A model generated the notes under the pieces. The model ran no database searches, was not told the DNA's origin, and worked only from the letters and a program-made list of their open reading frames with translations. Shown piece by piece: positions 33,537 through 36,705 of a stretch of DNA of 36,705 nt. Both the position numbers and the translations under genes were made by a program. Position 1 is the first letter of the stretch. Each line of letters opens with the position of its first letter. The DNA comes from an uncultured Erysipelotrichaceae bacterium. GTDB lineage: Bacteria; Bacillota_I; Bacilli_A; RF39; UBA660. The DNA is taken from contig CADBKG010000013.1 in NCBI GenBank assembly GCA_902795215.1, forward strand, positions 1 through 36,705. Direction: 5' to 3'.

Positions 33537-36500
33537 TTATCCACCAACACTAACATCACTAGTATCAACAATATAAGGGTTATTCTTACTTCCATCGCCA
33601 TCAACATACTCTGTGCCAGGTTTAAGGGAAACTACAGGGCGAACGCCGTATGCAGCAAAAACAGATTGAGTCGATAATCCACCATTTGAATTCGTATATT
33701 TCACATGCGTATAATTATAATTGTAAATAAACCAAGCAGGTGAAACAAGCCAATAATGTTGCCCTGTTTTTCTTATGTTGTTATTATTTAATAAGTTTAC
33801 TTCTGGATTACTTGCTAATCCTATTGGGTATAAAAGCTGTGCTTTCTCATTTAGTGTACTAAACCTGTCTGTATTATTTGTACAACTTAAATCTTTGGTT
33901 GAATTATTTTCTTTAAATTGTAATTGTACAGTAGAATTTCCACCATTTGAATTCCATCCACCTATATTTCTTATACTTCTATCATTACAAAAAACTGTAT
34001 CTTCTAAGCCACTTTCATAGTCCGATAAGTTTTCTTGATACCATGCATCTATATACGCTTTCATTGTTGAATCTGTTACATTTACATTTTCATCATATAA
34101 CATTTCATTTAGTGCATCTTCTACTGACTTCCCATCTTTTAATGTTATATATCTTTCGTCTCCAGCGCTTGTATAATAAATATACTTTAACTCGCTACAT
34201 TTTCCTGTTGTATTAAAGCAAGTATAGTGATTATTGTTTATGGTATTATATTTTGCATGCCAATCCCAAAAATGAATCTTGCTTGCAACTTCTGTATCTT
34301 TTAAAACATACTCATATTCATTTGTTTCTTCATTTAATTCGTAATCAAAGTCATTAGCATATATATAATCACTTGCTATGCTTTCAGCATTATATGTTTG
34401 TATTGCTGTATTTATTGTATATATTGGACTTGTACATGGATTGCTTCCTATACAAATATACTTATTTTTACTATCTGTATATTTTGTGAACCAGTCTGCT
34501 TTTTTAAATTCTTCTACAGTTCCACTTGTTGATATAATATTATATGTTCCATCTTGATTATCTATATATCCGTCCCCCACATAGAATGTTGGATTTACAT
34601 TTTCTAATGTCTGATCATATAGGATTGATAAATAGTATACATATTCACCTGATACTCCTACTACATATCTTATTGTAGTTCCTACGCTATCTGGATTAGT
34701 ACTAAAAAAAATGTATGTTCTAGCAAGTTCTTCATTACAATTTCTATTCGTAATGCATTCTTCTGCAGTAAATCTATCATCTTCATCAGTTTCTGGATTA
34801 TCATACAAATTAAAGTGATGCCAACCCATAACTTCATATTCATATTCTCTTGCAAAATAATGATTTTTCTTTAGTGTTTCTCTACTGAGTACATATATTC
34901 CAGAATCTGGATCAAATGTATTTTGTACATATAGTTTATTATACATATATCCAACATACGCTGGTGAATTATAACTTGAATTAAATGCCTTTGTTCCTAT
35001 TTGCTGTGCTGTTCCTGTATTATTACATGTTCCATTTGAATCTGGAATACCATTATAAATGAGTTTAACTCCTCCTGTGTCAGTGGTTCTAAGAATCTGC
35101 CAACAGAAACCTCCAAATATTACATTAAATTTATTTAGTATTACTTCCGCTTGTTGATTCGCAACGTTTGTATTTGTTGATGTTGTTGCATAGTGATATA
35201 TTTTTTCTGTTCCGCTTCTATCATATGCATCTGCATGTTCTCCTGTATATTCAGCTGCATATGTTCCTATTTTCGCTTCATTTTCTACTACTTTATATAA
35301 AGTGGTTTTTTCATTTATTTGTCCATCCATTGATTTATTAATAGATTGCCTTGTCCATATAGCTCGGATATGTACATCACTCTCTGGCATTATAAATGTA
35401 TCATCATTTATTTTTGTTACATTCTCTTCTATATCCCAACCCTTAAAGATATAACCACTACATGAAAGTTCTATATCTTTTTTTGTTACTTTATCAAATA
35501 CAAAATAATTTTCACTTTCTATTTCTTCTATATTACATTCTGTAGGCGTGTTTACATCATAATAAACATCGTAATTGTTTTTAAGTACTGGTGTATCTGT
35601 ACTTGATTTAGTTTTACTTTCATCGCTTATTTTATAATCTATATCTAGTTTTTTATTTGTTGGATACAACCCTTTTACATCTTGATATTCACCTTTTAAT
35701 TTTAGTTTAACTTTAAGTGTGTCTTCACTTCCTGTTATAAATGAGTTATCCCTAAAATTCCATTCTATTTTATTATCTTCATTTTCTATTTCAAAGTAAT
35801 CATCATTTATATAATCAGTAATGCTTAGTTTTGCATATACTTCTGGTGATACAGTTGCTTCAAATAAAACATTATTTAGAGAATCTACTTTTGCAGTCCA
35901 TTGATTGTCTGATATATCATTAACAGAATTTGTTGTATCTCCCATTTCATATTCCACTGCATTTATTGTTATATATGGATATGCTTCTTTTAATGATTCG
36001 TATATACTTGTAGTTGCACCGGAGTTTATTGTTGGTACTCCATCTGTTAAGAATAGTACTACTAAATCTTTACCAGATTCTTTTGAGTAGTTTTCTAAAA
36101 CTGTTTCTACATTTTTATATGCTAGATAGTAATTAGTAGCATCTTCTGTATGCATGTTATTAATCGCTTCAAGAAGTAGACTTCTATCATTTGTTAAAGG
36201 CGATAGTATTCTAGATGTAGATGCGAAAGATATAATTGATATTTTATTATCTTCATCTTTATCTAATACATAGTTTATAAGCTCAGAGGCATCTTCTTTT
36301 ACTTTGTCTAGTTTTTCGCCTTCCATAGAACCTGAAACATCAAATACTAAAATTATATCTTTTTTATTATTTCCTGTTTTTCTAATAGTTTCTAGTTTTA
36401 AATCAAGTTCTGCTTCTGTTTTGCTTACCCAGTGGGCTTCCTTAGTTACTTTTATTGAGCCTTCATTATCATAATCTTCTGTAGTTATTTCAACTTCTTT

Positions 36501-36705
36501 TATAGGAGTATTTCCACTAAAGAAATTACTTGCTAGGGTTTTAATAAAGTTTTGTTTCGCTGAATTAAGTAAAATGATTATTCCAAGCACTAAAAAAGCC
36601 ATAGCAAAAATTAGCCATTTTGCTATTGGCTTTGTATTTAAAAAGTTAGTTATTCCTGTCTGTCTGTCTGTCTGTCTGTCTGTCTGTCTGTCTGTCTGTC
36701 TGTCT
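33537..36705 (-). CDS. Very large VWA surface adhesin, 5' end beyond the window (probably phase-variable)
   Basis: At least 1055 codons; the frame is open to the window edge. After a repeat-coded hydrophilic run (Arg-Gln-Thr-Asp cycle) come KPIAKWLIFAMAFLVLGIIILL (one membrane helix) and a VWA domain with the MIDAS motif DVSGS (residues 88-92 counted from the ATG at 36602), ATN near 156 and LTDGVPT near 185-191. Next come beta modules (one SHIRT-like, GYIFKGWDIEEN), then the same lectin-like domain as at 21775: FGGFCWQILRTTDTGGVKLIYNG, AYVGYMYN, WYQENLS, DTVFCNDRS, YPIGL, GVRPVVSLKPG. The ATG at 36602 has no ribosome site, and the frame above it has no stop, so the true start is likely upstream. 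A metal-dependent adhesin is the likely role. Confidence 0.85.
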   Translation of the reverse strand, partial: DRQTDRQTDRQTDRQTGITNFLNTKPIAKWLIFAMAFLVLGIIILLNSAKQNFIKTLASNFFSGNTPIKEVEITTEDYDNEGSIKVTKEAHWVSKTEAELDLKLETIRKTGNNKKDIILVFDVSGSMEGEKLDKVKEDASELINYVLDKDEDNKISIISFASTSRILSPLTNDRSLLLEAINNMHTEDATNYYLAYKNVETVLENYSKESGKDLVVLFLTDGVPTINSGATTSIYESLKEAYPYITINAVEYEMGDTTNSVNDISDNQWTAKVDSLNNVLFEATVSPEVYAKLSITDYINDDYFEIENEDNKIEWNFRDNSFITGSEDTLKVKLKLKGEYQDVKGLYPTNKKLDIDYKISDESKTKSSTDTPVLKNNYDVYYDVNTPTECNIEEIESENYFVFDKVTKKDIELSCSGYIFKGWDIEENVTKINDDTFIMPESDVHIRAIWTRQSINKSMDGQINEKTTLYKVVENEAKIGTYAAEYTGEHADAYDRSGTEKIYHYATTSTNTNVANQQAEVILNKFNVIFGGFCWQILRTTDTGGVKLIYNGIPDSNGTCNNTGTAQQIGTKAFNSSYNSPAYVGYMYNKLYVQNTFDPDSGIYVLSRETLKKNHYFAREYEYEVMGWHHFNLYDNPETDEDDRFTAEECITNRNCNEELARTYIFFSTNPDSVGTTIRYVVGVSGEYVYYLSILYDQTLENVNPTFYVGDGYIDNQDGTYNIISTSGTVEEFKKADWFTKYTDSKNKYICIGSNPCTSPIYTINTAIQTYNAESIASDYIYANDFDYELNEETNEYEYVLKDTEVASKIHFWDWHAKYNTINNNHYTCFNTTGKCSELKYIYYTSAGDERYITLKDGKSVEDALNEMLYDENVNVTDSTMKAYIDAWYQENLSDYESGLEDTVFCNDRSIRNIGGWNSNGGNSTVQLQFKENNSTKDLSCTNNTDRFSTLNEKAQLLYPIGLASNPEVNLLNNNNIRKTGQHYWLVSPAWFIYNYNYTHVKYTNSNGGLSTQSVFAAYGVRPVVSLKPGTEYVDGDGSKNNPYIVDTSDVSVGG
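36656..36705. repeat. Tetranucleotide repeat (CTGT/ACAG), at least 12.5 copies
   Basis: Fifty bases of perfect CTGT repeat reach the window edge, so the copy number is a minimum. On the minus strand the unit reads AGAC inside the open frame of the VWA adhesin. Change by one unit shifts the frame; TAA stops wait in the two other frames at 36650-36652 and 36646-36648. Confidence 0.92.

Follow-up and report, generated by a model that had tools for sequence, protein, structure and literature searches.

AGAC repeats at the 5′ end of a VWA surface-protein gene family in a small Bacilli genome: probable phase variation, and a diversity-generating retroelement at one member

VWA surface proteins and adhesins of Gram-positive bacteria combine a membrane-anchored VWA domain with a MIDAS-type motif and repeat modules. 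In Haemophilus influenzae, contingency loci carry CAAT, GACA, AGTC and other tracts, and most of the in-frame tetranucleotide tracts of this species lie at or just after the start codon (PMC2651432). A Bacillota gene with tetranucleotide phase variation is icaC of Staphylococcus (reviewed in PMC7911514), and diversity-generating retroelements (DGRs) of the BPP-1 type, both cellular and phage, have been surveyed as well (PMC8144416). Slipped-strand contingency loci and DGRs have so far been studied as separate routes to surface diversity. The locus described here belongs to about eleven related surface proteins of an uncultured, presumably gut-dwelling Bacilli-type bacterium; six of these carry a slippery repeat that probably flips the gene on and off, and one of the six is also linked to a DGR.

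The VWA gene at the end of contig 13

The window, meaning the whole stretch of DNA that was analysed (36,705 nt), is the complete contig 13 of a draft genome of 37 contigs and 1.34 Mb (93% complete, 4.6% contamination). Its features around the repeat are as follows.

36656..36705, minus strand: (AGAC) repeat of 12.5 perfect units, read as (RQTD)n, running off the contig end
33537..36704, minus strand: VWA surface-protein gene, uninterrupted in frame between its stop codon and the contig end, repeat included, with the true start outside the contig
36567..36617, minus strand: single N-terminal transmembrane helix WLIFAMAFLVLGIIILL, directly after the cytoplasmic stretch encoded by the repeat and conserved in the paralogs
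35904..36359, minus strand: VWA domain with the MIDAS-type motif DVSGS ... T ... LTDG (PF00092, PF13519; paralog alignment)
31395..33434, minus strand: InlB/List-Bact-repeat surface gene downstream of the VWA gene; a homologue follows the VWA-DGR cassette on contig 16

Tandem Repeats Finder describes the tract as period 4 with 12.5 copies and 100% matches, the last base being the contig end at 36,705, whereas tandem tetranucleotide units numbered at most three in every Markov simulation of the window. The initial annotation had read the VWA gene as open from its stop into the repeat, with the two other frames closed just behind the repeat, and both statements were borne out: on the minus strand the frame extends from the stop at 33537 through an ATG at 36602 and the entire repeat (1055 codons), and stops at 36652-36650 and 36648-36646 end the other two frames right after the repeat. 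Its further remark that the reading between repeat and helix is sensible holds in one respect, as these 18 codons are open in all paralogs, but the three closest paralogs show eight non-synonymous against two synonymous differences there, so that a sensible reading of this stretch alone is no proof of coding constraint. The window gene thus carries a perfect tract in its 5′ coding region with a unit length not divisible by three, the arrangement of a contingency locus. The VWA domain is real (PF13519, E 1.3e-14), and together with the MIDAS motif it sits on a membrane-anchored protein whose topology points to surface exposure.

The internal ATG at 36602 was rejected as the real start because both a Shine-Dalgarno (SD) sequence and a promoter are absent. 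Its best duplex reaches −1.5 kcal/mol, compared with −8.8 kcal/mol for the paralog ATGs upstream of the repeats, and nine of ten other starts in the window give −6 to −14 kcal/mol; the scan returned no promoter-like site between the repeat and 36602. A promoter and ribosome site in this interval was what the initial annotation had named as evidence against phase variation; neither is present, and none of the other sequence-based signs it had listed against itself was found.

Further into the window, 29041-31395 and 20323-25348 form one surface-gene block with a SipW-like signal peptidase and several TasA/camelysin-like proteins. The same block includes a stand-alone lectin-like protein (21775-23076) and an ALK/LTK glycine-rich protein (20323-21765).

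Six AGAC arrays and a conserved leader

VWA matches in the genome number 13 and correspond to about eleven genes. AGAC arrays occur six times, every one directly 5′ of a VWA paralog (chance about 1e-20).

Contig 10 (C10): 13 units
Contig 13 (C13, the window): at least 12.5 units
Contig 15 (C15): 15 units
Contig 16, one paralog (C16a): 12 units
Contig 16, another paralog (C16b): 20 units
Contig 34 (C34): 19 units

The countable arrays span 12-20 units, these length differences being seen between paralogs of one genome, and the upstream flanks differ from array to array, so we regard the arrays as separate loci and not as alleles. Paralogs without an array (C21a, C30, C31, C17 and C3) start with an ordinary SD, ATG and basic stretch followed by the same helix, which indicates that the repeat occupies the place of the normal N-terminus. 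No AGAC arrays were found in eight other species of the genus, and VWA relatives in GTDB contigs (30-42% identity) have no comparable repeat. The proposal of a contingency-type tract on a surface-protein gene is supported, the window repeat being one of six arrays on VWA paralogs.

The upstream side is retained at five of the six arrays; there the repeat comes after a promoter, a ribosome site and an ATG. The promoter, upstream of the ATG, has the form TG-n-TATAAT, and in the sister loci the ribosome site ATGGTGATA (GGTGAT) stands before the ATG with −8.8 kcal/mol. The initial annotation had proposed to look ahead of the repeat for a start codon with a ribosome site; such an ATG is present in the sister loci and also in two genomes of other genera (G099 and G090), the upstream side of the window gene itself lying off the contig. 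In three intact leaders the ATG is exactly 33 nt before the first AGAC and encodes MLT-x7-L-(RQTD)n. When tracts were simulated behind an intact leader, the full protein resulted only at n mod 3 = 2 and other lengths were truncated; the suggested frame-switch logic of a four-nucleotide unit hence holds in silico. By this rule C15 is OFF at n = 15. C16b, at n = 20, is ON by reading, with an N-gap beside the repeat as a caveat, and C16a, at n = 12, is OFF from its SD-bearing ATG and open from a second ATG at −20 that has no SD. A 5-nt deletion creates a stop in the C34 leader and the C10 leader is deleted as assembled, so that these two copies are either locked off or mis-assembled. On the whole, the sequence evidence supports the earlier reading of phase variation and largely upholds it; that one member of the family is a DGR target lay beyond its view.

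Among about 290 sampled genomes of the family, at least six AGAC units occur, besides this genome, only in G099 and G052. The former belongs to another genus and holds the same leader twice, with 10 (L093 3622-3780) and 8 (L094 5914-5978) AGAC units. At the first of these sites, on its contig 42, leader and repeat precede a TasA/camelysin-like gene equipped with a ribosome site of its own. No reading frame runs from repeat to gene there, which makes a simple frame switch impossible for that gene. VWA relatives were not found in G099 by a search that does not prove their absence. In a third genus (G090) the same leader, with 3.75 AGAC units, stands before an orthologous VWA gene that has two ribosome-site ATGs in two frames and is open from the second SD-bearing one.

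The leader ATGTTGACA-N17-TAnnCTTAGACAGAC is kept across these three genera. In six leaders from them ATGTTGACA, TTGACA and TAGACAGAC are invariant, as are positions T1, A2, C5 and T6 of the hexamer TAnnCT, and the spacer from TTGACA to TAnnCT has a constant length of 17 nt at a mean pairwise identity of only 0.56. Lying within the first 11 codons, TTGACA-17-TAnnCT looks like a candidate promoter that overlaps the start of the ORF. Viral contigs held no case of the leader pattern with the repeat; the pattern lacking the repeat gave seven matches there, to one phage gene of unrelated sequence, and these were treated as chance.

The array of G052 was set aside as a case of the same leader system, for it sits in a different setting, inside a type I restriction specificity gene. 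Its nine AGAC units lie mid-gene in an hsdS-like gene (L095 8361-9659, minus strand), between the two half-site domains, and HsdR-like and DNA methyltransferase genes adjoin it; this HsdS is likely phase-variable.

The variable C-terminal domain and the contig-16 retroelement

The features at the other end of the protein and those of the retroelement are listed below (VR, variable repeat; TR, template repeat; RT, reverse transcriptase).

33537..35337, minus strand: C-terminal region whose last part is a probable C-type-lectin-like domain, a homologue of the domain targeted by the DGR (DUF6273; fold of the homologous domain)
33648..33737, minus strand: hypervariable segment at the DGR VR position
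Contig 16 (L033), 12657-13096 and 13278-15093: complete DGR with VR, TR, Avd-like gene and an RT with a fused MutS-like domain, downstream of the VWA paralog C16a
G090 (L132), 220-8327: orthologous VWA-DGR-InlB operon with the same gene order as contig 16

All paralogs end in the same domain, and identity among the close ones falls to 19% at the VR segment, from 57% before and 78% after it. The paralog C16a (C16:9690-12848) has a GC-rich 3′ segment (63%, against 29% in the window), and 329 nt downstream of its VR lies a copy, the TR, that differs at 22 of 111 positions. All 22 mismatches fall on template adenines over the 111 bp (P = 2e-15). The TR is followed by an Avd-like gene of 118 aa, with a weak full-length match to NF033474 (E 0.039), and the RT of 497 aa displays the motifs IGAMTSQ and YMDD and matches RVT_1. 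Its best match among solved structures is 8ub7 (2.5e-21), which we take to be the RT of the BPP-1 DGR. The C-terminus of the RT contains a MutS_I/MSL domain (PF01624, 22.2 bits, cut-off 20.6), and MSL is a known DGR accessory (PMC10053308). An adenine-confined VR/TR pair, a DGR-type RT and an accessory protein (MSL) are thus found together on contig 16.

The gene after the RT encodes an InlB-repeat protein, a homologue of the one following the VWA gene in the window. Since the VWA and InlB-repeat genes are adjacent in the window and separated by the cassette on contig 16, the cassette sits between them there. In G090 the RT is 60% identical to that of contig 16, and 19 of 21 VR/TR mismatches (best 90-nt alignment) are at template adenines. 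Such RTs are present in 108 of 291 family genomes. The contig-16 DGR locus had no match in phage records, and so there is no sign of a phage origin at that sensitivity.

For the variable segment of the window gene no second match, and so no template repeat, was found in the (incomplete) assembly, and the gene is therefore a homologue of a DGR target rather than a demonstrated target. Template repeats for the other paralogs lacking a DGR were likewise not found in the assembly. On contig 17 (L058, 1037-1171) a second GC-rich (63%) VR-like segment ends a tandem VWA/lectin gene, with no template repeat in the assembly; it is perhaps a former target of another DGR.

The predicted structure of the C-terminal 599 residues of the window gene was of low confidence, and the fold was assessed instead on a compact homologous domain of the same window, 21778-22629 (pLDDT 74, pTM 0.78). 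Its best structural match is the N-terminal part of the Thomasclavelia ramosa IgA peptidase (Z 10.8), with weaker matches to the Legionella Lcl C-terminal domain (Z 4.7) and to C-type lectins (Z 3-3.6). Foldseek gave no significant fold match for this domain, and the lectin assignment rests on the second aligner. From these models a lectin-like binding tip on the family proteins is likely, yet not settled. The combination of a VWA and a C-type-lectin-like domain suggests a binding role, and the protein may be called a putative adhesin.

Proposed mechanism, rival explanations and known systems

The anatomy of the loci, their frames and ribosome sites, their paralogy and the DGR template/variable pair can be read directly from the assembly. 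We think it likely that they reflect a membrane-anchored VWA/C-type-lectin-like family that is frame-switched by AGAC slippage, with the contig-16 member rewritten by a DGR in addition. Translation would begin at the ATG preceded by GGTGAT, 33 nt upstream of the tract. Slipped-strand gain or loss of four-nucleotide units, which we infer to occur in vivo, would shift the frame at the N-terminus and switch expression, so that each copy would be ON at about one in three tract lengths. At ON lengths (n mod 3 = 2 with an intact leader) the full protein would be made, whereas OFF lengths would yield a short peptide (about 26-55 residues). At least six copies would switch independently, and cells would display different subsets. 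Outside the cell the protein would show the VWA domain and, from copy to copy, a different lectin-like tip, which would presumably bind at the surface; in the contig-16 member this tip would also be rewritten through adenine mutagenesis from the template repeat. Several observations weigh against this mechanism: the damaged leaders of C34 and C10, the N-gap of C16b, the second, SD-less ATG from which C16a is open, the unconnected repeat on contig 42 of G099, the short tract and second SD-bearing ATG of the G090 orthologue, and the codons behind the repeat, in which synonymous changes are not in excess. Differences in n are moreover those between paralogs.

The conserved leader DNA invites another reading, in which the tract acts mainly on transcription: a start set by TTGACA-17 nt-TAnnCT would fall in the first AGAC unit, and tract length would tune or destabilise the transcript and not the frame. 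The invariant TTGACA and TAGACAGAC and the fixed 17-nt spacer with drifting sequence in six leaders fit it, as do the score of 10/12 that the promoter scan gives C16a and the repeat on contig 42 of G099, which shares no reading frame with the next gene. However, the scan yields such sites by chance at similar rates, the ATG and its preceding SD are conserved likewise, the leader is a whole number of codons long, and all copies in the window's genome have a long ORF running on from the repeat. Moreover, a transcript begun in the repeat would offer no ribosome site ahead of the ATG at 36602, while a further promoter with an extended −10 lies upstream of the ATG. We consider this reading improbable.

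Somewhat less probable still is the reading of the tract as a neutral or structural microsatellite that encodes a cytoplasmic linker tolerated by the protein and switches neither often nor under regulation. Against it, this genome of only some 1.3 Mb holds six long arrays, all within a single gene family, and the leader recurs in other genera; in addition, a four-nucleotide unit inside a gene would be expected to destroy the product at two-thirds of lengths unless switching were tolerated or useful. In its favour, two copies are already broken in the leader, and the tract is missing from related VWA genes of other Bacilli and elsewhere in the genus. Least probable of all, and by our estimate very unlikely, is an assembly artefact in which repeats and paralogs were merged from mixed strains. 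A 37-contig draft with breaks falling inside the repeat or the conserved VWA region, the N-gap in C16b and the odd leaders in C10 and C34 would agree with such merging, but the upstream flanks differ per array, the C16a locus lies within a 60-kb contig, and the same leader with AGAC turns up in separately assembled genomes of other genera.

Returning to frame switching by the AGAC tract, we lean towards a further step in which two independent engines act on one gene: 5′ AGAC slippage would set production and the 3′ DGR would rewrite the tip, so that variants may build up in the silent gene and come to light at a later time. Paralogs lacking a template may be frozen former targets. With both engines on one family, a cooperation of switching and targeted hypermutation (hide, mutate, reveal) becomes testable. 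The family also points to tetranucleotide phase variation, a mechanism familiar mainly from mucosal proteobacteria, acting on lectin-like proteins of small-genome Bacilli.

A limited search of the open-access literature found no earlier report joining tetranucleotide phase variation and a DGR on one gene; what appears new is that two known diversity mechanisms probably meet in one surface-protein family, in one instance at a single gene. With the H. influenzae loci the family shares a perfect four-nucleotide tract at the 5′ end of a surface-related gene with the ATG upstream, a hydrophilic tetrapeptide repeat, the frame-shift logic and several loci per genome, and GACA is the same repeat as AGAC. 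Unlike those loci, which concern varied LPS and uptake genes, the arrays here belong to one paralogous family in an uncultured Bacilli-type host, one member is a DGR target, and the leader DNA is unusually constrained. The icaC gene is alike in having a slipped-strand tetranucleotide tract in a Bacillota gene, switching being predicted from sequence in our case, and differs as a single biosynthetic gene with the tract inside the ORF, no paralog family and no DGR. As in known DGRs, the contig-16 VR lies at the 3′ end of its target, probably lectin-like, with an adjacent TR, an Avd-like gene and a DGR-type RT, mutations occur only at template adenines and an MSL domain is present; what sets the locus apart is the repeat of phase-variation type at the 5′ end of the target, the fusion of RT and MSL domain, and the insertion of the cassette between two surface-protein genes. 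Finally, the window family resembles Gram-positive VWA surface proteins in its membrane-anchored VWA domain, MIDAS-type motif and repeat modules, and departs from them in its N-terminal helix anchor, with no LPXTG seen at the C-terminus, and its hypervariable, probably C-type-lectin-like end.
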